Of a stretch of 64,000 bases of DNA, positions 39,815 through 52,502 are shown piece after piece. The notes beneath the pieces were generated by a model. That model did no database searches, was not told the origin of the DNA, and saw nothing but the letters and a program-made list of their open reading frames with translations. Positions within the stretch are counted from its first letter, which is position 1. Every line of letters begins with the position of its first letter. Where the stretch lies: positions 496,001 through 560,000 of the forward strand of contig NZ_JAIQXE010000001.1 of NCBI RefSeq assembly GCF_020076305.1, in the 5' to 3' direction. The position numbers and the translations under genes are program-made. The stretch is from Flavihumibacter profundi (GTDB taxonomy: Bacteria > Bacteroidota > Bacteroidia > Chitinophagales > Chitinophagaceae).

Positions 39815-39944
39815 GGCGCAAAAAAAGGCTATAAATAATTAACAATTCCTTTCCTAAGTCTTAAAGAAATATTAAAATGGATTTTGACACTTATTGTTTT
39901 TGTTTAATAATAAAACAATATATTAGGGCAACTAAACAACTGCG

Positions 39945-40502
39945 TTGAAAAAAACGATAGCCATATTATTGCTGATAATTCATTGTTTTAATCTAGCTGG
40001 CTATCCTGTATTTTTTGCCATTTTGCAGCATTCCGCTTCGGAAAAAGTCATTTCGCAATTAGATAACGGTGAGTATAATGATTCTGAACTTGTAGAAGTG
40101 AAAGTTGCCTATTCTTTACCGTATTCTACAAACTGGAAAGAATATGAGCGCTATAACGGGGAACTGGAAATTAATGGTGTTCATTATAATTACGTGAAAC
40201 GGAAATTGTATAATGATACCTTGTACTTAATGTGTATCCCCAACCGGGAAAAGACCAATTTGGGATACGCGAAAAATGATTATTTCAATTCGATCAATGG
40301 CGTAACAAATCACGGTCCGGAAAAAAAATCCCATGCTCCGGTTAACTCTATCCAGAAATCATTCGGGCAGGAATATAACCTGGATGGTAACGACTATTGC
40401 TTATCTCTTCAGGAAAGTAATATAGACCTGAAATTTCCATCTTTAAACTGTGCATTACCATACTGGTATGCAAACTCCTGTTTCCAACCTCCAAAGGCCT
40501 GA
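39945..40502 (+). CDS. Exported protein of unknown function
   Basis: A 185-residue protein starting with TTG (a non-ATG start giving MKKTIAILLLIIHCFN), with a signal peptide. The body has no recognised domain; it contains YVKRKLYNDTLYLMCIPN and several Tyr-rich stretches, as in small exported proteins that sit beside TonB-type receptors in this phylum. Not recognised. It precedes the AhpD-like cluster by about 150 nt on the same strand. Confidence 0.6.
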   Translation: MKKTIAILLLIIHCFNLAGYPVFFAILQHSASEKVISQLDNGEYNDSELVEVKVAYSLPYSTNWKEYERYNGELEINGVHYNYVKRKLYNDTLYLMCIPNREKTNLGYAKNDYFNSINGVTNHGPEKKSHAPVNSIQKSFGQEYNLDGNDYCLSLQESNIDLKFPSLNCALPYWYANSCFQPPKA

Positions 40503-40655
40503 TCAATCTTTATTTGTTGCATCTTGATTTCCACCTGAAAATCAGTCAGGGAAAATCATGTGCTGTCTTATCATAACAAAATGAACTGCTATGATATCCT
40601 GGCCATGCATTTATGTCCTGGCGGATTGAATTTTATTTAAGTAATAAGAATTGTT

Positions 40656-41222
40656 ATGCCTTTTATACCATTAGAAGAGCATCTGCCCGGTATTACAGGA
40701 TTATTGGAGTACCGGAAAGATACAGCCGCACCAATCCGCGAACTTACACAAATCCTGCTTCGTGGACCGTCTTCTCTAACCGAAGGGGAAAGGGAGTTGA
40801 TTGCTACATTAGTCTCTTATCGTAATGAATGTACATTTTGTACTACAGCACATACCGCTGCTGCCAATGTTTTACTCGGGGAAGAAACTACGTCAGCTAT
40901 GTTAAAGCAGGATATTAATTCTGCCCCTGTAAGTGAAAAACTTAAGGCCTTGCTAAACATTGCAGCACAGGTCCAGCAAAGTGGTAAAAATGTTACTGCC
41001 GATTTGATACAAAATGCAAAAGAAAAAGGTGCAACTGATCTCGAGATTCACGATACCGTCCTCATTGCTGCTCTCTTTTGCCTTTATAACAGGTACGTAG
41101 ATGGACTTTCTACTGTTACGCCAACAGATCCTGCTTTTTATAATGGGTTGGGCGAAAGGCTAAAGGCCAACGGGTATAATCGTTTGCCACAAGGGTATGA
41201 TCATTTAAAAAATAAACCATGA
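40656..41222 (+). CDS. AhpD-like carboxymuconolactone decarboxylase family protein (copy 1)
   Basis: A 188-residue all-helical protein. The redox motif CTFCTTAHTAA (CxxCxxxH) is at about residues 60-71, as in AhpD and peroxidase-related CMD enzymes; the family also has DTVLIAALFCLYNRYVDGLS near residue 130. AhpD acts as a peroxiredoxin-reducing disulfide partner, whereas CMD decarboxylases lack the Cys pair. Its stop overlaps the MFS gene by 4 nt (ATGA), so the two are translationally coupled. First of four paralogues. Confidence 0.87.
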   Translation: MPFIPLEEHLPGITGLLEYRKDTAAPIRELTQILLRGPSSLTEGERELIATLVSYRNECTFCTTAHTAAANVLLGEETTSAMLKQDINSAPVSEKLKALLNIAAQVQQSGKNVTADLIQNAKEKGATDLEIHDTVLIAALFCLYNRYVDGLSTVTPTDPAFYNGLGERLKANGYNRLPQGYDHLKNKP

Positions 41223-42484
41223 CCGCATCAAGCCAGCAAAAAATTACACTTTATCACTGCGTGATGTTTGCCATCTGCTTTTTTGGGACTGCTTTTGCAG
41301 GAACGGTCTCAACACTTATGAGTGTTTATCTTCCTGTTGCAGTGACCGACCTGCTTGGCAAAACTTCCGGAGACGACCTGAATTATATCAGTTCTTACAT
41401 AAATGCCATTTTCATTTTCGGCGGTGCTTTGGGTGGGGTTTTAACCGGAATTTTAAGCGATAAGGCAGGCAGGAAAACCGGTGTAATTGTTTCAATTGCC
41501 AGTTATGGCATTTTTACAATCCTTACAGGATATATGCAAACCTGGTGGGGCGTTGTGCTTTGCCGGTTTTTCAGTGGTTTTGGCTTAGGGGCAGTACTGG
41601 TTACTACAAACACATTAATGATGGAAGTATGGCCGGAAAAAACCAGGGCAATATTTATCGGGATACTTACAATTTCAATCCCCGTTGGAATATTTTCTGC
41701 AGGTGTAATTGATTATTTTGTTTCCTCCTGGCGCCAGGGTTTTTTGATTGGCATTATTCCGGTGGGGATATCCCTGCTTTCTTTTTGGGCTTTGCGCGAG
41801 TCTCCTGTATGGGAAAGTCAAAAGGGAATAATCACTGGCCGGAAACAAGGTGGGGAAAGCATTTTTGCAGTACACTACAACAAGGACCTGGTAATAGGAT
41901 CAGTAATATTTGGCGCAATGCTTATTGGCTTATGGGCAATTTTTTCCTGGCTTCCAACCTGGATACAAAGCCTTATTACCAATGGCGATGGCCAGAAAGA
42001 GCGTGGCCTGAGTATGATGATGCTTGGTATGGGCGGATTAACCGGCGGCTTTTTATCTGGCTGGTTAACCAATGCAATCGGACTTCGGAAGTCAATGATC
42101 CTATGCTTTTCAGTATGCGCTGTTTTGTCTTTCCTTTTATTTAAAACGAATGCTGTTTTTTCCCCGATAATTTATGTGGAAATAATTATCCTGGCTTTGT
42201 TTTTTGGTGTCAGCCAGGGCGTACTATCGGTGTACATACCGAATTTATTTCCGGTGTCCATACGTGGAACTGCCACAGGCTTTTGTTTTAACATCGGGAG
42301 GCTCTTTACGGCGACTGCTGTTTTGTTTGTTGGTGTGTTGGTTTCCACATTAGGTGGTTTTGGTAATTCATTATTTATTTTTTCCCTTGTATTCGTGGTC
42401 GGATTAATTGTAACCATTTTTTCAAAAAAGAGCCAGGATGTTTTATCAGACAAAGTGGCTGAAAATTCCATTAACCTTCAATAA
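41219..42484 (+). CDS. MFS transporter
   Basis: A 421-residue transporter with 12 predicted helices. The MFS signature GILSDKAGRKTG lies between TM2 and TM3, and a second-half copy (SGWLTNAIGLRKS) between TM8 and TM9. An RESPVWESQKG loop after TM6 resembles the metabolite-H+ symporter group. It overlaps copy 1 of the AhpD-like genes by 4 nt and precedes copy 2 by 8 nt, so transport of the locus substrate or product is likely. The substrate is not clear. Confidence 0.88.
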   Translation: MTASSQQKITLYHCVMFAICFFGTAFAGTVSTLMSVYLPVAVTDLLGKTSGDDLNYISSYINAIFIFGGALGGVLTGILSDKAGRKTGVIVSIASYGIFTILTGYMQTWWGVVLCRFFSGFGLGAVLVTTNTLMMEVWPEKTRAIFIGILTISIPVGIFSAGVIDYFVSSWRQGFLIGIIPVGISLLSFWALRESPVWESQKGIITGRKQGGESIFAVHYNKDLVIGSVIFGAMLIGLWAIFSWLPTWIQSLITNGDGQKERGLSMMMLGMGGLTGGFLSGWLTNAIGLRKSMILCFSVCAVLSFLLFKTNAVFSPIIYVEIIILALFFGVSQGVLSVYIPNLFPVSIRGTATGFCFNIGRLFTATAVLFVGVLVSTLGGFGNSLFIFSLVFVVGLIVTIFSKKSQDVLSDKVAENSINLQ

Positions 42485-42492
42485 TAAATCAT

Positions 42493-43035
42493 ATGGCACA
42501 TATCAAAGTTGAAGTAGGTGTGCCTGGTATCAGGAGCCTGGTTATGTTCAGGCCTGAAACAGGTAAACCATTGTATGAATTGGCTCAGGTGTTATTAAGA
42601 GGACCTTCGACTTTATCTCCGGCTGAGCGGGAATTAATAGCCGCATATGTTTCGTTCCGGAATAACTGCGGGTTTTGTATGAACAGTCATGCTGCAGCAG
42701 CAAGATGTTTATATGGGGATGAAAAAAGTATTGTTGATGATGTACTTGCTGACATGCAGCAATCAGGCGTTTCACCAAAAATAAAAGCATTGCTGAATAT
42801 AGCAGGCAAAGTACAGGTACTGGGCAAGGAAGTCCATGAAGAAGATATTGCCTTAGCACGGAAATATGCAGCAACCGACCGTGAGATCCATGACACGGTA
42901 TTAATTGCAGCTGCATTCTCAATGTTTAACCGGTACGTTGACGGGCTGGCCAGTTGGACACCCGATGATCCGGCTGCCTATGCAGAAATGGGGCAGCGGA
43001 TGGCAGATAAAGGATATGTTATTCCTAAACCTTAA
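42493..43035 (+). CDS. AhpD-like carboxymuconolactone decarboxylase family protein (copy 2)
   Basis: A 180-residue paralogue of copy 1. CGFCMNSHAAAA supplies CxxCxxxH. The block DREIHDTVLIAAAFSMFNRYVDGLASW is shared with all four copies almost unchanged, indicating fairly recent duplication. It starts 8 nt after the MFS gene and 24 nt before copy 3. The N-terminus (IRSLVMFRPETGKPLYELA) is also shared. Likely a helical disulfide redox enzyme. Confidence 0.87.
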   Translation: MAHIKVEVGVPGIRSLVMFRPETGKPLYELAQVLLRGPSTLSPAERELIAAYVSFRNNCGFCMNSHAAAARCLYGDEKSIVDDVLADMQQSGVSPKIKALLNIAGKVQVLGKEVHEEDIALARKYAATDREIHDTVLIAAAFSMFNRYVDGLASWTPDDPAAYAEMGQRMADKGYVIPKP

Positions 43036-43059
43036 TCCGATTTATTAAATAAAATAAGT

Positions 43060-43611
43060 ATGGCACATATTCAATTTGAAGAAGGTTTACCAGGCATACG
43101 CGGACCAATGGCTTTCAGGCCTGAAACTGCAAAACCTTTAAATGAACTCGCAGAACTGCTGCTTCGCAATGATAATAGTACGCTTTCACGTGGTGAAAGG
43201 GAATTGATCGGTACCTATGTGTCCTCCCTTAATGATTGCTTCTTTTGCCAGAATATTCACGGGGCAATCGCAGGACATTATCTGGAATGTGATATTTCCT
43301 TTATCGATGCAGTGAAAGAAAATTACCTGTCATCTGATATCACTGAAAAATTGAAATCATTATTAACAATTGCAGCTGCAGTACAAAAAGGAGGAAAGAA
43401 GGTAACAGCAACAATGGTGGATGATGCCAGGCAAAAGGGAGCAACCGACCGCGAAATCCATGATACGGTTTTAATTGCTGCTGCATTTTGCATGTTTAAC
43501 AGGTATGTTGACGGGTTGGCTACCTGGGCACCTGAAGACAGAATGTACTACGTGAACCGGGCCGCCCGACGGGCCGAAGAAGGCTATGTTGATTTCGATA
43601 TCCACCAATAA
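43060..43611 (+). CDS. AhpD-like carboxymuconolactone decarboxylase family protein (copy 3)
   Basis: A 183-residue paralogue. CFFCQNIHGAIA gives CxxCxxxH. N-terminus GIRGPMAFRPETAKPLNELA; C-terminal block DREIHDTVLIAAAFCMFNRYVDGLATW, nearly identical to copies 2 and 4. The start is a normal ATG 24 nt after copy 2. Position and similarity say the four proteins are processed from one operon and may form mixed oligomers; that last point is inference. Confidence 0.87.
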   Translation: MAHIQFEEGLPGIRGPMAFRPETAKPLNELAELLLRNDNSTLSRGERELIGTYVSSLNDCFFCQNIHGAIAGHYLECDISFIDAVKENYLSSDITEKLKSLLTIAAAVQKGGKKVTATMVDDARQKGATDREIHDTVLIAAAFCMFNRYVDGLATWAPEDRMYYVNRAARRAEEGYVDFDIHQ

Positions 43612-43621
43612 ACAAACTGCT

Positions 43622-44194
43622 ATGGAAAGAGAACCGCATATTAACCTGGGCAATAATTTCCCGGGGATAAGGGGCTTAATGGCTTTTCGGGAAGATACCG
43701 CTGCACCGATGGGTGAGCTGGCCAATATCTTGTTGCGCGATTCCATTGGATTGACTCCTGCTGAAAGGGAACTGATCGGTACTTATGTTTCTAACCTGAA
43801 TGATTGCTTTTATTGCGATCAATCCCATGGGGAAATTGCCTGTATCTACCTTGACGGTAATCGCGAATTGGTAGACCAGGTTCGTACAGACTACGAGCAT
43901 GCAGATATTTCAGATAAATTAAAGTCCTTACTAAACCTTGCCGGCAAAGTCCAGCAAAGCGGAAAGGCTGTCACGAAATCAGATATTGCCTACGCAAAGC
44001 TGAATGGTGCAAGTGACAGGGATATACATGACACGGTACTAATTGCTGCTGCATTCTGTATGTTTAACCGTTATGTGGATGGCCTTTCAGCAAGGGTTCC
44101 GGCCGATTTATCTTCTTATCCACTGCGTGCGCGCCAGATCGTGGAAACCGGCTATGGTAACCACATTCTTCATACAAAACAACCGGGAACCTGA
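43622..44194 (+). CDS. AhpD-like carboxymuconolactone decarboxylase family protein (copy 4)
   Basis: 190 residues from the ATG at 43622 (MEREPHINLGNNFPGIRG); an upstream ATG at 43586 overlaps copy 3. CFYCDQSHGEIA gives CxxCxxxH. Shares the DIHDTVLIAAAFCMFNRYVDG block with its paralogues. It begins 10 nt after copy 3 and ends 36 nt before the SusC gene, which makes the AhpD-like set directly continuous with the outer-membrane uptake pair. Confidence 0.87.
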   Translation: MEREPHINLGNNFPGIRGLMAFREDTAAPMGELANILLRDSIGLTPAERELIGTYVSNLNDCFYCDQSHGEIACIYLDGNRELVDQVRTDYEHADISDKLKSLLNLAGKVQQSGKAVTKSDIAYAKLNGASDRDIHDTVLIAAAFCMFNRYVDGLSARVPADLSSYPLRARQIVETGYGNHILHTKQPGT

Positions 44195-44230
44195 GTTCCC
44201 TCAAACCATTAATTACAAACAAAAACTGAT

Positions 44231-47173
44231 ATGATGAGAAAATTGATACTGTTTGCAGCATGGCTGCTATGTATACTGTTTTTGCCTGGCCGGTTATTTG
44301 CACAGGACAGGACAATTACAGGAAAGATTACCGACCAGAATGCTATTCCACTTGCAAATGTGAGCGTGTTTATTGCCAAAACAAATATTGGCACAATTAC
44401 AGATGGTGAAGGAAAATTTAGTCTCTCCGTTCCCCCGAACACAACGCTGCTGGTAAGTTCTGCCGGTTATAAAACGCAAACGATAAAAGTGGACAATACA
44501 GTTGGCGATATCCAGGTTAAATTACTGGAGGATGTTTCTAAACTGGAAGAGGTAGTGGTAACAGGTTTGGCAACCAGTGTGAAAAGAAGAAACCTGGCCA
44601 ACTCTATTGCTACAATTTCCAGCAAGGAATTGCAGGGTACAGCCCCGGCACAAACTTTTGATGCGGCGCTGAACGGAAAAATTCCCGGTGCCTATATCAA
44701 TGCCAATACAGGCGCACCCGGAGGGGGCTTGTCCGTAAAATTGAGAGGCGTCACTTCTATATTTGGCAATACACAACCACTGTATGTTGTGGATGGTGTA
44801 TTTATGGATAACACGGCAACATCAGCTGGATTAAATGCTGTAACCGGTGCCGCTACCGGTGGTAATTCTTCAACCCAGGATAATCCATCAAGCCGGATAG
44901 CTGATTTACGAAGCGAGGATATTGAAAATATTGAGATACTCAAAGGTGCTTCTGCTGCTGCAATCTATGGTTCAAAAGCAGCAGCCGGTGTAATTATCAT
45001 CACCACAAAAAGAGGAAAACAGGGAAAGACCAGGGTTAGCTTTTCACAGGACCTTGGCTATTCACAAGTTCGCAAACTACTGGGTACCCGCCCGTTGAGT
45101 GAATCAATAGTGCAGGGGCAGGGTTGGGATGTAGAAGAATACAAGGCCGCAGTTGCTGCCGGGAAAATTTACAATTATGAAAAAGAAATGTATGGAAATA
45201 CCGGTTTCACCCGGAACAGCGTACTTAGTATGACAGGCGGAACAGATAAGACAAGTTTTTATTTTTCCGCTGCAACAAAGAAAGAAGAAGGTATAATAGC
45301 AAGGACCGGTTATGGCAATAATAGTTTCCGTTTAAATGTTGACCACCGGATCACTAACAATATTAAAATTGGTATAAGTACTAACTATATCAACTCTTCT
45401 TCAGACAGGGGTTTAACGGGAAATGATAACAGCGGGGTTACTTATGGAATTGCATTGTCGTCAACTCCCAGCTTTACCGAATTGCATCCGGACGTAAATG
45501 GTCAGTATCCCCGGAATAAGTATGCAGCTTCGAACCCCATTGAAACAAGGGATAAAATGACCAATAATGAAAATGTAAACCGGTTTGTAACCGGGCTTAA
45601 CCTTGATGCCATTTTGCAAAAAGGAGGAAAATCAACCACCAGGTTTATTGCCAGGGGCGGATTTGATTTTTATAACCTGGTCACGACTGCATTATTCCCC
45701 AGTTCATTGCAGTTCCAGACTGTGAATAAGGGAACATCAATACAGGGATTCACCAAGAACATGAACACCAACTATATCCTTTCACTAGTGAATGCTTATA
45801 CACCATCTGATAAACTTTCACTCACTACTTCAGCAGGCATTACCCAGGAAACCGGGGATTACAATAATTTGCTGAATGTAGCTACCCAGGTTATTGCAGG
45901 ACAGTCGAACGTTGACCAGGCCGGAGCTCTGACGGCCTCACAATTCAGGACAAAAGTGCAGGATAACGGGATTTTTATGCAGGAAGAAGCAAGTATTATT
46001 GATGCGATTACCTTAACAGCCGGTGTGCGATTTGACAAGTCTACAAACAACGGCGATCCCAACCAGTATTATACTTATCCAAAAGCAGGTATTTCATGGA
46101 ACCTTACTAAGATGGACTTCTGGAAGGGCAGTTTTTTTGAAAACTTCAAGGTTAGGGCTGCTTATGGACAGGCAGGGAATTTCCCGGCATATGGAAGCAA
46201 GTTTACTTCAATGCCGATATCAAATATAACCGGCCTGCCAGGATCTGTTGTAAGTACACAACAGGGTGAAAAAAATATAAAACCTGAAACGCAAACCGAA
46301 TTGGAAGCAGGGTTTGATTTCAGTATATTCAAAGGTCGCTTAAGTATGGAGTTTAGTTATTACAACAAGAATGTTTATGACTTCCTGATGCTGAATACCT
46401 TGCCGTCATCCTCTGGTTTTACTAACCAATGGGTAAATGCAGGTGACCTTCGCAATGAAGGGATAGAAATCGGGTTAAATGCACAGCCGGTAGTAACCAA
46501 AAAGATCAGGTGGAATACTACAGTAAATTTCTGGTTCAACCGTTCCAAAGTAACCAAACTGACTATACCTCCAGTTCAACTGGGTTCTTTCGGCGTTGCC
46601 TTAGGTACCTTCCAGATTGAACAGGGCAAGTCTGCCACGCAGATCATCGGACTTACCGATGAGCCGGGATACACTGTTCCGATAAAGGTTTGGGGCGACC
46701 AGGAGCCAAGGTTCCAAATGAACAGTTTTAATGAAATTACTTTTAACAACAGGCTAAGTCTCCGTTTCCTGGTACATTGGAAATATAAGGGCGATAATAT
46801 TAACCTGACAAACCTGCTCAATGACCTTGGCGGTACCAGTGCGGACTTTGATAGCGATAATAATAAGAACGGCGTTCCTGATGGGGTTGACCGTATCCAT
46901 AAAATAGGATCAACAGCTACAGAGTTTATCCAGAATTCAGGCTACCTCCGGTTCAGGGAAATTGGCATGTATTATTCCTTTAACAGGCTACCTGGAAAAT
47001 TAGTGAAAGCATTAAGGCTTGGTGTTTCCCTGAATAACTACATCACAATAACCAACTATGCAGGGTACGATCCTGAAGTATCCAACTTTGGTACCGGATT
47101 TTCAACCGGTGTGGATGTAGATCCATTCCCGGCCTCAAAACACGCCGCTTTCCACATTTCTGTTGATTTCTAA
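44231..47173 (+). CDS. SusC/RagA-family TonB-linked outer-membrane transporter
   Basis: A 980-residue protein with an ATG-ATG start (44231 or 44234) and a signal peptide ending LFAQD. A CarboxypepD_reg-like domain (ITGKITDQNAIPLANVSVFI) is followed by a plug with KLEEVVVTGLATSVKRRNLA, LYVVDGVFMDNTA and IEILKGASAAAIYGSKAAAG, the SusC/RagA signature, then a large barrel. It forms the channel for a glycan or other large ligand captured by the partner SusD protein encoded 17 nt downstream. Same strand and close spacing to the AhpD-like genes. Confidence 0.94.
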   Translation: MMRKLILFAAWLLCILFLPGRLFAQDRTITGKITDQNAIPLANVSVFIAKTNIGTITDGEGKFSLSVPPNTTLLVSSAGYKTQTIKVDNTVGDIQVKLLEDVSKLEEVVVTGLATSVKRRNLANSIATISSKELQGTAPAQTFDAALNGKIPGAYINANTGAPGGGLSVKLRGVTSIFGNTQPLYVVDGVFMDNTATSAGLNAVTGAATGGNSSTQDNPSSRIADLRSEDIENIEILKGASAAAIYGSKAAAGVIIITTKRGKQGKTRVSFSQDLGYSQVRKLLGTRPLSESIVQGQGWDVEEYKAAVAAGKIYNYEKEMYGNTGFTRNSVLSMTGGTDKTSFYFSAATKKEEGIIARTGYGNNSFRLNVDHRITNNIKIGISTNYINSSSDRGLTGNDNSGVTYGIALSSTPSFTELHPDVNGQYPRNKYAASNPIETRDKMTNNENVNRFVTGLNLDAILQKGGKSTTRFIARGGFDFYNLVTTALFPSSLQFQTVNKGTSIQGFTKNMNTNYILSLVNAYTPSDKLSLTTSAGITQETGDYNNLLNVATQVIAGQSNVDQAGALTASQFRTKVQDNGIFMQEEASIIDAITLTAGVRFDKSTNNGDPNQYYTYPKAGISWNLTKMDFWKGSFFENFKVRAAYGQAGNFPAYGSKFTSMPISNITGLPGSVVSTQQGEKNIKPETQTELEAGFDFSIFKGRLSMEFSYYNKNVYDFLMLNTLPSSSGFTNQWVNAGDLRNEGIEIGLNAQPVVTKKIRWNTTVNFWFNRSKVTKLTIPPVQLGSFGVALGTFQIEQGKSATQIIGLTDEPGYTVPIKVWGDQEPRFQMNSFNEITFNNRLSLRFLVHWKYKGDNINLTNLLNDLGGTSADFDSDNNKNGVPDGVDRIHKIGSTATEFIQNSGYLRFREIGMYYSFNRLPGKLVKALRLGVSLNNYITITNYAGYDPEVSNFGTGFSTGVDVDPFPASKHAAFHISVDF

Positions 47174-47190
47174 ATAACTAAAAGAATTTT

Positions 47191-48501
47191 ATGAAAAAGT
47201 TGATCAATATAAATTTTCTCTTTCTATTAATACTGGCTGTTTCTTTCGCATCCTGTAAGAAAGAGTACGGTAACCTGAATAGTCCCACTGTTGAAGATTA
47301 CCTGGATAATGCATCAATTGACCAGTTGAATAACCTGGTAAGTGGCACAGAGTCTGCCATGCGGAATAATCTTGGTTTGTATCTCGATGATATCGGCGTA
47401 CTAGGTCGTGAAATGTATCGATTTTCAGGTGCTGATCCGCGTTATGTAACCGATTTACTTGGTGGTGGTAATTCAACCCTGAGTAATTCCGGTTTTTATA
47501 TTACCAATGTTTGGTCCAGCCGGTACCGTGTTGTGAAAAACTGTAATGTCCTCGAAGAAGCCGCAGCAAATAGTACTTATATTTCTGAAGCTGAAAAGAA
47601 AGGCTATAGCGGATTTGCCAAAACAATAAAGGCTTACCAATTATTGCTTGTTTTGAACCTGACCAGCAAAAATGGTATCCGGGTTGATGTGGCCGATCCG
47701 AAAAACCTTGGACCCATATTAAATGAAACAGATGCACTTACAGCAATCGCAACGCTCCTGGATGAAGCAAATACTGAACTTGCCAGTGCGCAGGTTGATT
47801 TCCCCTTATCCGATGGGTTTGAAGGGTTTAAGGATGCTGCAGGGCTTGCCAAATTTAACCGTGCCCTGGCGGCAAGGGTGGCTGTTTACCGTAAGCAATG
47901 GTCAGCTGCTCTTTCCGCATTGGAAGGATCATTTTATTCATTAGATGGTGACTTTAATACTGGCGTCTATGATGTATTCGGTACTGGTTCAGGGGACCAG
48001 TTGAATTCTGCTTTTTTCCCGCAAAACCAGGCAGGTGAAGTAAGGCTTGCGCATCCAAGCTATGCAACTGAGATTGAAGCCAGTGATGACAGGATCGGGA
48101 AAGCTTCAATGAGGACTGCGCCCACTTCCAGCAGTGGACTTACCAGCGACAGGGATGTTTGGGTATACACTTCAAGTACAGCACCAGTTCCCATAATCAG
48201 GAATGAAGAATTGATCCTGATTTATGCTGAAGCGAATATTCAATTGGGTGGTGCAGGACTTAACAATGCTGTTTCTGCATTAAATAAGATCCGCACCAAA
48301 CACAACCTTGGAGTTTACTCTGGTGCTGTTACTCAGTCGGACCTGGTCACTGAAATGCTGAAACAGCGTCGCTATTCCTTATTTTTTGAAGGCCATCGCT
48401 GGATTGATATGCGCAGGTATGACCTGTTATCAACACTGCCAATTGACAGGCCGGAAGATGATATTTGGAGTGAGTTTCCGATACCCAATACAGAGCAGTA
48501 A
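47191..48501 (+). CDS. SusD/RagB-family outer-membrane lipoprotein
   Basis: A 436-residue protein with lipobox SFASC (Cys about residue 22). It has TPR-like helices with the SusD C-terminal blocks RNEELILIYAEANIQLGG, ALNKIRTKHNLG and QRRYSLFFEGHRWIDMRRYD, ending FPIPNTEQ. It is shorter than classic SusD (about 500-550 residues), with a compact N-terminal domain. It caps the SusC channel and presents the ligand. A strong terminator follows. Confidence 0.93.
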   Translation: MKKLININFLFLLILAVSFASCKKEYGNLNSPTVEDYLDNASIDQLNNLVSGTESAMRNNLGLYLDDIGVLGREMYRFSGADPRYVTDLLGGGNSTLSNSGFYITNVWSSRYRVVKNCNVLEEAAANSTYISEAEKKGYSGFAKTIKAYQLLLVLNLTSKNGIRVDVADPKNLGPILNETDALTAIATLLDEANTELASAQVDFPLSDGFEGFKDAAGLAKFNRALAARVAVYRKQWSAALSALEGSFYSLDGDFNTGVYDVFGTGSGDQLNSAFFPQNQAGEVRLAHPSYATEIEASDDRIGKASMRTAPTSSSGLTSDRDVWVYTSSTAPVPIIRNEELILIYAEANIQLGGAGLNNAVSALNKIRTKHNLGVYSGAVTQSDLVTEMLKQRRYSLFFEGHRWIDMRRYDLLSTLPIDRPEDDIWSEFPIPNTEQ

Positions 48502-48516
48502 GATAAATTGAAAAGC

Positions 48517-48548
48517 AGATCCCCTGATTACAGGGGATCTCTTTTTTT
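48517..48548 (+). terminator. Intrinsic terminator after susD
   Basis: A 10-bp perfect stem AGATCCCCTG/CAGGGGATCT with an ATTA loop (48517-48540), then C and seven T. It separates uptake genes from the downstream hydrolases and probably lowers their expression relative to SusCD. Confidence 0.92.
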
Positions 48549-48598: not shown

Positions 48599-50566
48599 AT
48601 GAAGGGTGTACTTTGTTTGCTGCTGCTCACCAGTTTTGCCGGTCTTGCACAAAAGCCGGGTAATAGCCGCCAGCCCCTGGACCTTGCATTTTTCCTGCAC
48701 CAACTCTATGACATAAGCACACTGCCGGTTTATGAAGAAGGTACATATTCAGCCGAAACATCCACTTATGACCGGACCGGCGGAAACAATGATGGCTTTG
48801 AAGGAACCTATTCCTATATAAGGCGGAATGCCGACAGCAGCCTTGTGATCTTTGACCAGAAAGGCCCGGGCGTGATTAACCGGATTTGGACGCCAACCCC
48901 AACTGATGATACACTTGATTTTTATATTGACGATCCATTGAAGAAGACATTTTCTATAAGGTATCTTGATTTGTTCACGGGCAAGGTCTTTCCCTTTGTT
49001 GCTCCTCTATGCGCTAATCAGCTGGGTGGCTATTATTGTTACCTGCCCATCCCTTTCAGCAGGTCCTGTAAAATAGTGTTCCGTGGAAAAATGACCCGCT
49101 TCCACCAGGTTGGGTACCGTTTATACCCACCATCTACAGCAGTTAAAAGTTTTTCGGTAACATTAGACCAGCCCGAAAAAACAGCCTTGCAGCAAGTGCA
49201 GAAGACCTGGAACCGGGATAAGCGCAGCGTTAAGGATTTCTATGGTGACAATTCAGTATCGGAACACCAGCAAACTATTACGTTGAGGCCCGGAAATTCA
49301 GCCATATTGTTCCAGTCTGTGCAACCCGGCCGGCTTGCTGGTTTTGAGTTGCTGAGCTCCGCACCATTGGATACCATCGCCAGGAACATTGACCTGAAAA
49401 TCACCTGGGATGGCGATCCCCATCCGGCAGTATATTGTCCGTTGGCCGATTATTTCGGTTATGCATTCGGGAAAGCTTCCTTGCAGGGTTTACTGGCAGG
49501 GTCGGATGGTAGATTATTCTATTCCCTTTTTCCCATGCCTTATGACCGTTCTGCAAAAATTGAATTGATCTACAGGAAGACGAAGGTGCTGAATGAACTG
49601 TCTGAAGTAAAGATCATGGGCAGGTTCTATACCAGTACGAAAAAACGGGATGCATTAAGGGAGGGAAAGTTTTATGCCAACTGGAACCGCGAAAACCCGG
49701 TGACTCCGGGAAAGCCTTTCACTATGCTGCAGGCAAAAGGGAAGGGGCATTTTGTTGGCGTTAACCTGCAGGCCCAGGGATTAAATCCCGGTATTACCAG
49801 TTTCTTCGAAGGTGATGACTCCACTGTTGTAGATGGTGAGCTTCGGATGCATGGCACCGGCTCTGAAGATTTTTTTAACGGTGGCTGGTATGCGCTGCTC
49901 GATTGCTGGGATGATGGAATGAGTTTGCCCTTGTCGGGCGCGCTGGATTACTCTATTCCACTTGCACGCACAGGCGGCTACCGGTTCTTCCTTGGCGATA
50001 AAATTTCATTTACTAGCAGTTTTGTGCATACGATAGAACATGGCCCTGAGCATAACCAGGTTCCCGCAGATTATACTTCTGTGAGCTATTATTATTGCAG
50101 CGGCAATAACGCGCAGCGGGAATTGCCTGCGAACCATAACACGGACATATATGTGCCTGATACGCTGGAGATATACCCGCAACTGACTCTGACTGCCATG
50201 GATGAAAGCCTGGCTGCTGAAGCGAAATGGGACGGCACCCCTGCTAAGACCATGTACTATACGGTAGGAAACGAAACTATCCTGAAAATGTCCCTGCAGG
50301 ATATCCCATTCGGGGAATATGATGTTTACCTGGATTACCGGACCACAAGCGGATCTGCACAATTTTCCTTATGGCAGCGGCAAACGCAGCTGACTGAGTG
50401 GACTGATGCATGGTCCTCCCAACCCACTAAAATTGATATGCGAAAAATGGCGCGGGTCAGGCTAAGCGAACTCAACCATTCCCTTAGTTTCCGGTTCAGG
50501 ACCAGTCCGCAGCGGGATAAATTTATCCTCTGCAGGATGGTGTTAATCCGGAACCATTACCATTAA
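48599..50566 (+). CDS. GH172 (DUF2961) glycoside hydrolase
   Basis: A 655-residue exported protein with a signal peptide (to about residue 17, SFAGLAQK). The DUF2961 core includes YDRTGGNNDGFEGTYSYIR, DQKGPGVINRIWTPTP, GSEDFFNGGWYAL and IEHGPEHNQVP. DUF2961 is now GH172, whose members act on difructose anhydrides and D-arabinan/fucofuranoside linkages, often as multimers. The acidic residues in EGDDSTVVDGELRMHGTGSED are candidates for catalysis. A C-terminal beta domain from about residue 540 is extra. Its neighbours suggest a furanoside-bearing target. Confidence 0.86.
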   Translation: MKGVLCLLLLTSFAGLAQKPGNSRQPLDLAFFLHQLYDISTLPVYEEGTYSAETSTYDRTGGNNDGFEGTYSYIRRNADSSLVIFDQKGPGVINRIWTPTPTDDTLDFYIDDPLKKTFSIRYLDLFTGKVFPFVAPLCANQLGGYYCYLPIPFSRSCKIVFRGKMTRFHQVGYRLYPPSTAVKSFSVTLDQPEKTALQQVQKTWNRDKRSVKDFYGDNSVSEHQQTITLRPGNSAILFQSVQPGRLAGFELLSSAPLDTIARNIDLKITWDGDPHPAVYCPLADYFGYAFGKASLQGLLAGSDGRLFYSLFPMPYDRSAKIELIYRKTKVLNELSEVKIMGRFYTSTKKRDALREGKFYANWNRENPVTPGKPFTMLQAKGKGHFVGVNLQAQGLNPGITSFFEGDDSTVVDGELRMHGTGSEDFFNGGWYALLDCWDDGMSLPLSGALDYSIPLARTGGYRFFLGDKISFTSSFVHTIEHGPEHNQVPADYTSVSYYYCSGNNAQRELPANHNTDIYVPDTLEIYPQLTLTAMDESLAAEAKWDGTPAKTMYYTVGNETILKMSLQDIPFGEYDVYLDYRTTSGSAQFSLWQRQTQLTEWTDAWSSQPTKIDMRKMARVRLSELNHSLSFRFRTSPQRDKFILCRMVLIRNHYH

Positions 50567-50600
50567 CCGCAACCATAATTACCACAAATTATAGGATCAA

Positions 50601-52283
50601 ATGAAACACAGCATTACCATCGCTTTTTGCTTTGCGGCACTATTTGTTGCGGCTAACGAAAAAGATCCGGTTATAAAAACAGCAGCCAATAAAATGGCAG
50701 AGATAACGCTAACGGCTACACGTAACTATTCCGACCCGTTCAACCAGGTTATACTGGATGCAATATTTACAGATCCGCAAGGTAAAGAACTAAGGGTCCC
50801 CGGTTTCTGGGCAGGCGGTAATACCTGGAAACTGCGCTATGCATCACCTGTTTTGGGTGAGCATAGTTTCCGGACAGTCTGTTCCGAAACAGGTGACAAA
50901 GGCCTGCAGGGCGTAGAAGGAAAAGTGATAGTAGGCGGGTATACTGGAAAGAACCTGCTTTACCAGCATGGCCCGATTAAGATCGCTGATGATAAACGCC
51001 ATTTTGCCTATGCAGATGGCAAACCATTTTTCTGGTTAGGCGATACCTGGTGGATGGGTTTGACAAAACGGTTACAGTGGCCGGAAGATGTAAAGTTGCT
51101 TGCAGGCAATCGCCTGGAAAAGGGATTTAATGTTATCCAGATTGTTGCCGGGTTATATCCCGATATGCCTGCCTTTGACGAAAGGGGCGCAAATGAAGCC
51201 GGGTTTCCCTGGGATACAGCATATACCGCGATCCGTCCTGAATATTTCAATACTGCAGATAAGCGGATCATATATTTAGCCGAGACCGGACTGGTTCCCT
51301 GTATTGTAGGGGCATGGGGTTATCATTTGCCCTGGCTGGGCACTGAAAAAATGAAAAAGCATTGGCGTTACCTGATTGCCCGCTGGGGTGCTTTACCTGT
51401 GGTTTGGTGTGCCGCCGGTGAAATTACCATGCCTTTTTACCTCTCAAAGAATGCTGCAGCAGATGAAGTGTACCAGAAAAATGAATGGACAAAAGTCATA
51501 CAGTATATGCGGGAAACAGACCCATTCCACAGGTTGATTACGACCCACCCAAGCAGGACCGCCCGGGCCTCTGTAAACGATCCTGCATTGCTGGATTTTG
51601 ACATGCATCAGAGCGGACATGGGTCTGTTGCGGCAGAGCATGCGGCATTGGCCCTGGAAGGCTGGAAGACCCAGCCGGTAATGCCTGTATTGAGTGGCGA
51701 AGCAAGATACGAAGCACTTGAAATTCCACTTCCCCTTCCTGCCGCTGCTGCCCGGCAGGCGTTCTGGGCACACACCATCAACTCAGGACTGGCAGGCCAT
51801 ACTTATGGAGCAAATGGAATATGGCAGGTCAATGGTCGTGATAAACCCTACGGTAATTCTCCCGGTGGAAATAATTGGGGCACAACACCCTGGAATAAAG
51901 CGATGGACCTTCCCGGATCGGCCCAGGTCGGTGCTGGCCGCAGGCTGATCGAATCACTTCCCGGGTGGAACAGGTTTGAACCACGGCCGGAATGGATAGT
52001 AGGATGGTCGGGAAAAGATATTTCCATGTATGCCGTTGCGGGGGAAGAAACGGCATTGGCATACATACTTGCGCCAGGTACCATAAAACTTCGGCTACCC
52101 CTTGCCGATACCAAATATACGGCCTGCTGGTTTGACCCTATTGCCGGAAAAAAGCTCAGGGATTTTACCATTACTACTGATCATGCCGGGATGGTTAGTT
52201 CCGCATCACCAGCGGGCAAGCAGGATTGGGTGCTTACTTTGAGAAAAGGAAAACAGGCAGCACCCAGGAAAAGTACTTTATGA
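50601..52283 (+). CDS. DUF4038 (apiosidase-like) glycoside hydrolase
   Basis: A 560-residue exported protein with a short signal peptide. An N-terminal DUF5060 beta domain (residues about 28-115, ITLTATRNYSDPF) is followed by a DUF4038 TIM-barrel (FAYADGKPFFWLGDTWWMG, WGALPVVWCAAGEITMP, PVMPVLSGEARYEALEIP) and a C-terminal beta domain of the putative collagen-binding type (ISMYAVAGEETALAYIL). DUF4038 is related to the GH140 apiosidases. Glu in CAAGEI and Glu in SGEARYE are possible catalytic residues. It follows the GH172 gene by 34 nt, forming a two-enzyme operon. Confidence 0.85.
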   Translation: MKHSITIAFCFAALFVAANEKDPVIKTAANKMAEITLTATRNYSDPFNQVILDAIFTDPQGKELRVPGFWAGGNTWKLRYASPVLGEHSFRTVCSETGDKGLQGVEGKVIVGGYTGKNLLYQHGPIKIADDKRHFAYADGKPFFWLGDTWWMGLTKRLQWPEDVKLLAGNRLEKGFNVIQIVAGLYPDMPAFDERGANEAGFPWDTAYTAIRPEYFNTADKRIIYLAETGLVPCIVGAWGYHLPWLGTEKMKKHWRYLIARWGALPVVWCAAGEITMPFYLSKNAAADEVYQKNEWTKVIQYMRETDPFHRLITTHPSRTARASVNDPALLDFDMHQSGHGSVAAEHAALALEGWKTQPVMPVLSGEARYEALEIPLPLPAAAARQAFWAHTINSGLAGHTYGANGIWQVNGRDKPYGNSPGGNNWGTTPWNKAMDLPGSAQVGAGRRLIESLPGWNRFEPRPEWIVGWSGKDISMYAVAGEETALAYILAPGTIKLRLPLADTKYTACWFDPIAGKKLRDFTITTDHAGMVSSASPAGKQDWVLTLRKGKQAAPRKSTL

Positions 52284-52341
52284 ATATGGCATTAAGCAGG
52301 GGTCATACGTATAAGCGAACAAATTGGTCAGGGTTTAGAAA

Positions 52342-52502
52342 CCATGTGCCATCCATGTGCCAACCATGCGTCAACCATGTGCCAACCATGTGCCAACCAT
52401 GTGTCAACCATGTGTCAACCATGTGTCAAGCATGTGCCAAGCATGCTAAAACAGGCTATTTTACGCAGGATAGCACATGGTTGGCACATGGTTGGCACAT
52501 GG
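52342..52502. repeat. 11-bp tandem repeat array with inverted copies
   Basis: About nine and a half head-to-tail copies of an 11-bp unit (consensus CCATGTGCCAA, with T for C at position 8 in some) at 52342-52449. After 25 nt of unrelated sequence come about three copies in the opposite orientation (52472-52502). Positions 52375-52403 and 52474-52502 are perfectly complementary for 29 bp, and other registers are possible. It lies just after the DUF4038 stop. It may terminate transcription as a long hairpin or bind a protein at one site per helical turn. Reading frames across it are Cys/Pro/His repeats, not genes. Confidence 0.9.

Follow-up and report, generated by a model that had tools for sequence, protein, structure and literature searches.

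The window analyzed here is a stretch of 64,000 nucleotides (nt) from Flavihumibacter profundi (contig NZ_JAIQXE010000001.1, positions 496,001 to 560,000). It contains seven genes which, as judged from their sequences, appear to be the SusC/D-bearing version of a recurrent import-and-processing operon of Bacteroidota with the gene order c0, CMD1, MFS, CMD2, CMD3, CMD4, SusC, SusD. Four of the genes encode AhpD-like proteins of the CMD family, one encodes a transporter of the major facilitator superfamily (MFS), and the last two encode an outer-membrane receptor and its partner lipoprotein. An earlier prediction made for this DNA (the original prediction) let the unit start with CMD1 at 40656. 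However, this start omits a conserved open reading frame (ORF), here named c0, which is present before the same arrangement in most relatives, and the operon probably begins at this unannotated ORF (39945-40502). No description of an uptake operon combining CMD, MFS and receptor genes was found in the open-licence PMC literature that was searched. The operon and its neighborhood comprise the following features:

39945-40502, + strand: c0, a leader-type protein of 185 amino acids (aa) with a TTG start, an N-terminal hydrophobic helix, a small alpha/beta domain and the C-terminus ...FQPPKA
40503-40655, + strand: gap of 153 nt between c0 and CMD1, covered by promoter, terminator and fold scans
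40656-41222, + strand: CMD1, AhpD-like, TIGR01926 family, position-1 set (profiles, alignment, tree)
41219-42484, + strand: MFS transporter similar to aromatic-acid:H+ symporters and SLC22 (TIGR00895 as best NCBIfam match)
42493-43035, + strand: CMD2, AhpD-like, the copy after the MFS gene (profiles, tree)
43060-43611, + strand: CMD3, AhpD-like (profiles, tree)
43622-44194 (ORF open from 43586), + strand: CMD4, AhpD-like, the copy before susC (profiles, tree)
44231-47173, + strand: SusC-type TonB-dependent receptor (TIGR04056, 510 bits against a cut-off of 368)
47191-48501, + strand: SusD-type lipoprotein (PF07980, 57 bits against a cut-off of 23)
48517-48540, + strand: intrinsic terminator, a 10-pair stem with 6 GC followed by CTTTTTTTAA
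48599-50566, + strand: DUF2961 (GH172-like) protein, a neighbor past the terminator and probably a separate unit (PF11175, 192 bits)
50601-52283, + strand: apiosidase-like protein, a neighbor and probably a separate unit (PF13204, 219 bits)

Gene order and relatives of the operon

All seven genes from CMD1 to susD are intact and form one compact run (40656-48501) at the predicted place. CMD1 and the MFS gene overlap by 4 nt, and the distances between the subsequent genes are 8 nt (MFS-CMD2), 24 nt (CMD2-CMD3), 36 nt (CMD4-susC) and 17 nt (susC-susD). CMD3 and CMD4 either overlap by 26 nt (start at 43586) or are separated by 10 nt (internal ATG at 43622), the start at 43622 being preferred by the alignment of the copies. 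The 3′ end of the unit is formed by a strong terminator consisting of a hairpin and a T run, and the gene 5′ of c0 is located on the opposite strand.

A scan of species genomes yielded at least 565 relatives of the CMD set, of which the 80 top-ranking loci, by similarity to CMD1, were kept; 20 further regions were added from genomes near that of the window, and the genes in the loci were called and labeled by profiles. A strong MFS match beside a CMD gene was present in 82 loci, 80 of them non-duplicate, and 72 had enough flanking sequence for a census. For this, 2.6 kb after the MFS gene were demanded, SusC was counted only downstream of the MFS gene, and runs were cut at c0. The proposal that CMD/AhpD-like and MFS genes are built into an outer-membrane uptake operon is borne out by these 72 loci as a recurrent arrangement. 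Under this definition of a run, c0 opens it in 65 loci. A single CMD gene is found in 1 locus, two are found in 15, three in 43, four in 11 and five in 2, which amounts to at least three copies in 56 loci.

A TonB receptor of ~920 aa, usually located between CMD1 and the MFS gene, is present in 51 of the 72 loci and SusC downstream of the MFS gene in 10, while both receptors together occur in none and neither of them in 11 (Fisher P 7e-7); one of the latter loci, L088, carries SusC/D upstream of the MFS gene. As the TonB receptor and SusC never share a locus, SusC/D looks like an alternative receptor. A first version of this test, whose flank filter removed the majority of the TBDT1 loci, gave no sign of exclusion (P = 1 for 26 loci). 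The filter was replaced after this result had been seen, because the MFS gene sits further from the anchor in TBDT1 loci. The original prediction had named a lack of linkage to SusC/D in relatives as a finding that would speak against the operon. Most relatives indeed tie the CMD set to the other receptor, yet the set is still linked to outer-membrane uptake. Further genes linked to the 72 loci encode DUF3179 proteins (32 loci), vanadium-haloperoxidase-like proteins (13), two outer-membrane barrels (12 and 10), a siderophore-type TonB receptor (11), MetE-like proteins (8) and FG-GAP/UnbV proteins (6).

Within the genus of the window, CMD matches of this kind were found in nine of 14 other genomes. 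Two of these carry SusC/D behind the CMD set (L114 and L120, the genome of L120 also having a version with the TonB receptor, L121), six carry the TonB receptor version (L116, L122-L125, L127) and one contains a fragment (G011). In a phylum-wide sample of 198 genomes, CMD matches at E ≤ 1e-30 were present in 15 and c0 matches at E ≤ 1e-5 in 38. Among twelve regions drawn from this sample, L230 has the order CMD-MFS-CMD and L233 the order CMD-TonB receptor-MFS. Solitary CMD relatives have a homogentisate dioxygenase (L234) or DUF3179 (L238) as neighbor, are located two genes away from an HPPD-like protein (L237), or lie by class-III aminotransferases (L231, L232) or UnbV (L235, L236).

As a whole explanation, an import-and-processing operon with c0 as a Pro-Pro pausing leader is considered to have slightly less than an even chance of being correct. 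Sequence comparison establishes the gene set and its recurrence, the receptor exchange, the age of the paralogues and the signature of c0, and the functions in the model are inferred. According to this model, SusC/D would be responsible for the passage of a small organic ligand through the outer membrane, and the MFS protein for its transport through the inner one. In the cytosol the CMD enzymes, which may form hetero-oligomers of specialized subunits, would then process the ligand via a conserved Glu/Cys/His site, with a chemistry that might be reductive or of the decarboxylase/hydrolase type. c0 would be a sparingly translated, co-translationally exported leader of low output, at whose terminal Pro-Pro the ribosome would pause. 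Release by export, by folding or by a signal sensed by the c0 domain would set the transcription or translation that reaches the operon across the gap.

The c0 reading frame as a candidate leader

Searches with four c0 proteins, including that of the window, yielded no match in NCBIfam and only one stray weak, not meaningful match in Pfam (both at E ≤ 10), with none to DUF2946, and no solved relative of the family was found (best E 0.15). An AlphaFold2 model of the window protein (predicted local distance difference test score, pLDDT, 84.6) begins with a helix (2-40), which is followed by a region of four strands and one helix (50-117), a stretch of poor model quality and an extended tail; a fold search with this model against the PDB gave no match at E ≤ 0.001. 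The aligned start codons of 110 c0 copies are TTG in 65, GTG in 35, CTG in 6 and ATG in 4 cases, compared with ATG in 251 of 259 CMD genes. Only one alignment column contains Cys at a high frequency (70%), and there is no other column in which Cys or His is the commonest residue at 30% or more.

The feature which sets c0 apart is its C-terminus. Pro-Pro is found within the last 14 residues of 114 of 116 copies, compared with 42 of 1644 other ORFs of at least 140 aa in the same loci (not all of which need be genes) and with 7 of 1395 other 14-residue pieces of c0 itself. All 16 Pro-Pro codon pairs occur among the c0 ends, which indicates that the residues and not the DNA are conserved. The two prolines are the sole invariant columns in two alignments, one of 30 hand-chosen copies (A3) and one of 89 of the 90 non-redundant copies (A4), the latter leaving out L188, which has no Pro-Pro, after a length filter had already removed the 153-aa copy L043_2, which has none either. 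PPP and PP followed by D, E, G, N or W are strong ribosome-stall contexts, and one of them is present in 95 of 117 c0 copies, compared with 241 of 803 Pro-Pro elsewhere. The phylum-wide search added 27 copies, all of which end with Pro-Pro, the search model including the Pro-Pro columns and thereby slightly favoring such copies. For 26 of them the longest ORF just downstream matches the profile of a TonB receptor, a haloperoxidase-like protein, a barrel or a CMD protein, several of these matches being weak.

The genomic position of c0 is also consistent with a leader. The next gene lies on the same strand in 116 of 117 copies. In 84 of 86 copies it both shares the strand of c0 and carries a profile label, the median distance being ~165 nt. 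Bacteroidota-type promoter matches (at least 9/10, with one shuffle per sequence as control) were found upstream of c0 in 29 of 115 cases (shuffled: 9) and upstream of the next gene in 2 of 69 (shuffled: 9). The gap of the window (40503-40655) contains neither such a match at 8/10 or better nor a terminator-like site on the + strand. In 114 sequences, windows between 39 nt upstream and 30 nt downstream of the c0 stop codon showed no local RNA structure; the structure peaked 11-60 nt after the stop codon, at 1.6-1.8 kcal/mol below shuffled sequences, compared with up to 1.1 in the coding part further up. Folding of whole gaps gave a z of -1.8 compared with -1.05 upstream (first 60 gaps that fitted). 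The possibility that the c0-CMD1 gap holds a conserved attenuator hairpin was considered and dropped, as a hairpin with a T run is present in 26 of 97 gaps between c0 and the next gene (a count without control) and these gaps have no hairpin sequence in common.

Small exported leaders that resemble c0 have been described for other bacteria. In the model for CruR of Bordetella, a ribosome stalled at the C-terminal RAPP blocks Rho until copper releases the ribosome (PMC9426467). As far as that paper describes it, CruR (DUF2946) resembles c0 in several respects: it is a small ORF in first position and encodes a signal peptide, it precedes a gene for a TonB-dependent transporter, and it has Pro-Pro a few residues before its stop codon (PMC9426467). 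A position just upstream of TonB-transporter operon genes, by which CruR is recognized, is held by c0 in 65 of the 72 runs. Unlike CruR, c0 has no CxxC (one semi-conserved Cys), no RAPP and, in the four proteins searched, no match to the DUF2946 model, and it precedes operons that are not evidently related to copper. CutF of Rhodobacter, in the part of its description considered here, is likewise an exported leader with a proline-rich C-terminus and structured RNA downstream (PMC9973294), whereas c0 lacks a Cu-binding motif and no stem-loop common to the c0 loci was found to cover the start of the next gene. The RAPP/RGPP upstream ORFs (uORFs) surveyed before TonB receptors in Gram-negative bacteria are, as outlined in the survey, small exported proteins with a proline motif near the C-terminus (PMC12992588), but R[A/G/S]PP occurs in none of 117 c0 copies. 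A survey of arrest peptides linked to Sec/YidC mentions Bacteroidota uORFs with a common C-terminal Pro (PMC10987492). As it has neither CxxC nor RAPP, c0 is not classed as a CruR, CutF or RAPP peptide; by analogy it looks like a new family that would act similarly to CruR and CutF.

A number of observations weigh against c0 being a stalling leader. c0 is not always the first gene on its own strand: the preceding ORF is on the other strand in 40 of 117 copies, on the same strand and less than 100 nt away in 34, 100-300 nt away in 29 and further away in 11, and it is not visible in 3. Upstream of c0 in the window there is no good Bacteroidota-type promoter match, the best site being one to the E. 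coli consensus (11/12, 39884-39911), and the gap contains a weak sigma-70-type match (9/12 with TG, 40568-40595). Because of the close same-strand genes upstream of c0 and the weak promoter match in the gap, the estimates for the whole explanation and for the wider proposal on c0 given below were lowered from an even chance to just under it. In addition, the fold of 40475-40675 in the window is unremarkable (z -1.04), no hairpin is shared among the gaps, the window protein ends in QPPK and thus outside the strongest stall contexts, and ATG starts are more frequent among the more distant copies of the phylum-wide set. The CxxC and R[A/G/S]PP motifs of the known leaders are absent, and in three of the phylum-wide regions (L227-L229) the MFS gene is followed by three CMD genes without any c0, with a TonB receptor next in two and the contig end in the third. 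With respect to the known systems, no stalling of a LepB fusion was obtained with the proline end of CutF on its own in the experiments described (PMC9973294), and the arrest survey, in the part that deals with them, states that arrest by CruR and CutF is not yet shown (PMC10987492). Finally, as its domain is confidently modeled, c0 may act as a protein.

The best-surviving alternative is that c0 is a working membrane or periplasmic partner of the receptors and that its Pro-Pro end binds another protein. The well-modeled domain, the conserved residues which are also found in the middle of the protein and the close same-strand upstream gene in 34 of 117 copies would all fit such a role. It is nevertheless regarded as unlikely, as c0 sits in cis before the genes of the system and has non-ATG starts, promoter matches accumulate upstream of c0 but are scarce downstream, and the two prolines are its best-conserved residues.

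The genome of F. profundi contains two more c0 copies. One of them heads an operon (L136, 7031-14537) that encodes a pair of vanadium-haloperoxidase/PAP2-like proteins, a barrel of the outer membrane, a TonB receptor of the siderophore type and a protein of 185 aa. Operons of similar content are present in genomes of the genus without CMD matches (L167-L171) as well as in those with them (L172-L174, L196). The other copy, a c0 relative with the tail TPPWA (L181, 3853-9609), precedes a TonB receptor together with the genes of a Peripla_BP_2/FecCD/ATPase importer. The haloperoxidase-like module and the CMD module are linked in loci of Larkinella, Spirosoma and Algoriphagus, where both lie in one run behind a single c0 (L082, L089, L100-L104, L109, L113). 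A wider proposal would regard c0 as a new Bacteroidota family of exported stalling leaders without metal site and without RAPP, mostly starting with TTG or GTG, whose pause senses export or an imported ligand and controls whole uptake operons, be they of the CMD/MFS/SusCD, the vanadium-haloperoxidase-like or the haem/siderophore type; the CMD system would then be an undescribed import-and-redox pathway functionally joined to haloperoxidase-like enzymes. This proposal is tentative and given marginally less credence than the whole explanation for the window operon. If c0 is a stalling leader, TonB/SusCD uptake operons of Bacteroidota would be controlled by a nascent exported protein without metal motif, and a principle proposed for copper and Sec genes would be extended to the phylum best known for outer-membrane uptake.

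Two loci contain a second c0 directly before SusC inside the CMD operon (L043, 11064-11525; L057, 9596-10156), as though this receptor had retained a leader of its own; the copy in L043 is short and has no Pro-Pro. A GH65-like gene lies just upstream of c0 in the CMD loci L035, L044 and L061 and in the c0 operons L175 and L177-L180, and one gene further up in L097.

CMD paralogues, transporters and candidate cargo

All four CMD proteins exceed the Pfam cut-off for CMD (PF02627) and reach 84.4-88.2 bits against TIGR01926 (cut-off 81.8). The redox motif reported for the four copies is present in each of them as E-x11-C-x2-C-x3-H, which is also found in 232 of 261 CMD copies of the collected loci. 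Family and active-site motif are shared with AhpD/TIGR01926 peroxidase-related enzymes (solved structures 2prr, 3c1l and 2pfx), but in the present loci usually two to four distinct paralogues are joined to an MFS transporter and an outer-membrane receptor. In a FastTree phylogeny of 254 CMD proteins, which has some long branches, CMD1 groups, with support 100, in a set of 89 rows, of which 79 are in first position. CMD2 belongs to a set of 35 rows, all directly after the MFS gene (support 96), which represent 35 of the 71 after-MFS rows. The set of CMD3 comprises 78 rows (support 97; 50 after CMD, 13 after MFS, 8 before SusC, 7 other), and nested inside it is the set of CMD4 with 11 rows, 7 of them before SusC (support 99). 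The expectation of one clade per position thus holds mostly for CMD1 and CMD4 and partly for CMD2, whereas the CMD3 set is mixed.

The position labels require 34 changes on this tree, compared with 138 after shuffling. The copies therefore did not arise by a recent local amplification, and recent tandem duplication was rejected. The tandem duplication which the original prediction derived from shared blocks is retained as an old event only: the block DTVLIAAAFCMFNRYVDG is exact in CMD3 and CMD4 but differs by 3 residues in CMD1 and by 1 in CMD2. The paralogues are therefore old, with CMD1 and CMD4 in mostly position-specific sets and CMD2 partly so, and such long-kept, distinct copies are consistent with specialized subunits. 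Glu47, Cys62 and His66 do not vary in any of the 254 rows. Thr replaces Cys59 in 28 of these copies, a deviation from AhpD/TIGR01926 that breaks the AhpD disulfide pair and suggests, from the residue exchange, a changed chemistry in these subunits. By position, the exchange is found in 10 of the 79 copies that come first, in 12 of the 72 that follow the MFS gene and in 6 of 34 others, but in none of the 69 located after CMD or before SusC. CMD1 or CMD2 of several loci (e.g., L039, L056, L093) have Thr in place of the first Cys of CxxC, the second Cys and the His being kept. For the common unassigned family to which these proteins belong (peroxidase-related TIGR01926), the core of CMD, MFS and receptor genes provides a pathway context for a substrate search.

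The best NCBIfam match of the MFS protein is TIGR00895 (E 9e-40, 137 bits, under the cut-off of 419), and its solved relatives are mostly SLC22 members, aligned over ~140 residues. The SusC of the window shares 65-84% identity with its counterparts in five other CMD loci, and the adjacent SusC and SusD are both above their family cut-offs (TIGR04056, PF07980). An aromatic or similar organic anion is the likely cargo, with a metal chelate as another candidate. Uptake of such a chelate (xenosiderophore, haem or similar), in which SusC/D or the TonB receptor and the MFS protein would import the metal complex and the thiol enzymes would free the metal or break the ligand, is judged rather improbable, and somewhat more so than a partner role of c0. 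It is favored by the c0 relatives that precede a TonB receptor and Peripla_BP_2/FecCD/ATPase genes, one set of them in the window's own genome (L181), by the linked receptor TBDT5, which is nearest to siderophore receptors (under the cut-off), and by the remote locus L227, where a run MFS-CMD-CMD-CMD-TonB receptor has an imelysin gene nearby. However, the MFS protein is nearest to carriers of aromatic acids and organic anions, and as c0 precedes very different operons it need not indicate iron.

The original prediction placed the CMD genes in a glycan-utilization locus, to which they would have added a detoxifying step. The operon has the SusC/D pair in common with the polysaccharide-utilization loci of Bacteroidota, and this pair is bona fide. 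Carbohydrate-active genes (DUF2961, apiosidase-like) follow at 48599-52283, two DUF2961 genes lie 3′ of susD in the same-genus relative L114, and GH65-like genes precede c0 in a few loci. In contrast to polysaccharide-utilization loci, there is no glycoside hydrolase before the terminator, and the receptor is exchangeable with a TonB receptor. In the window, the strong terminator separates the carbohydrate-active genes from the operon. No DUF2961 gene was found 3′ of susD in L120 (same genus) or L038, the two other SusC-type loci checked, and SusC/D is the minority receptor, with a plain TonB receptor in its place in 51 of 72 loci and SusC in 10. The terminator and the receptor exchange led to the rejection of a glycan locus as the leading reading, and it is considered very unlikely; on present sequence evidence little appears to connect the CMD/MFS system to glycans. 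A peroxide-defense unit, in which the CMD proteins would be peroxidases against hydroperoxides and the transporters incidental, fits the peroxidase-related family and its E-x11-C-x2-C-x3-H motif but is equally improbable, as the link to transporters recurs in 72 loci, several distinct CMD copies are better suited to a pathway than to general defense, and Thr takes the place of the first Cys in 28 of 254 copies.

Beyond the carbohydrate-active neighbors, the window contains at 52340-52502 an 11-bp tandem array of AACCATGTGCC with 9.6 copies and reverse-complement copies just downstream. The repeat occurs at seven places in the genome and at six of these forms an inverted pair with a spacing of 34-45 bp (27 pattern matches, compared with 0 in the reversed control). 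It is, by its pattern, a dispersed hairpin-like repeat.

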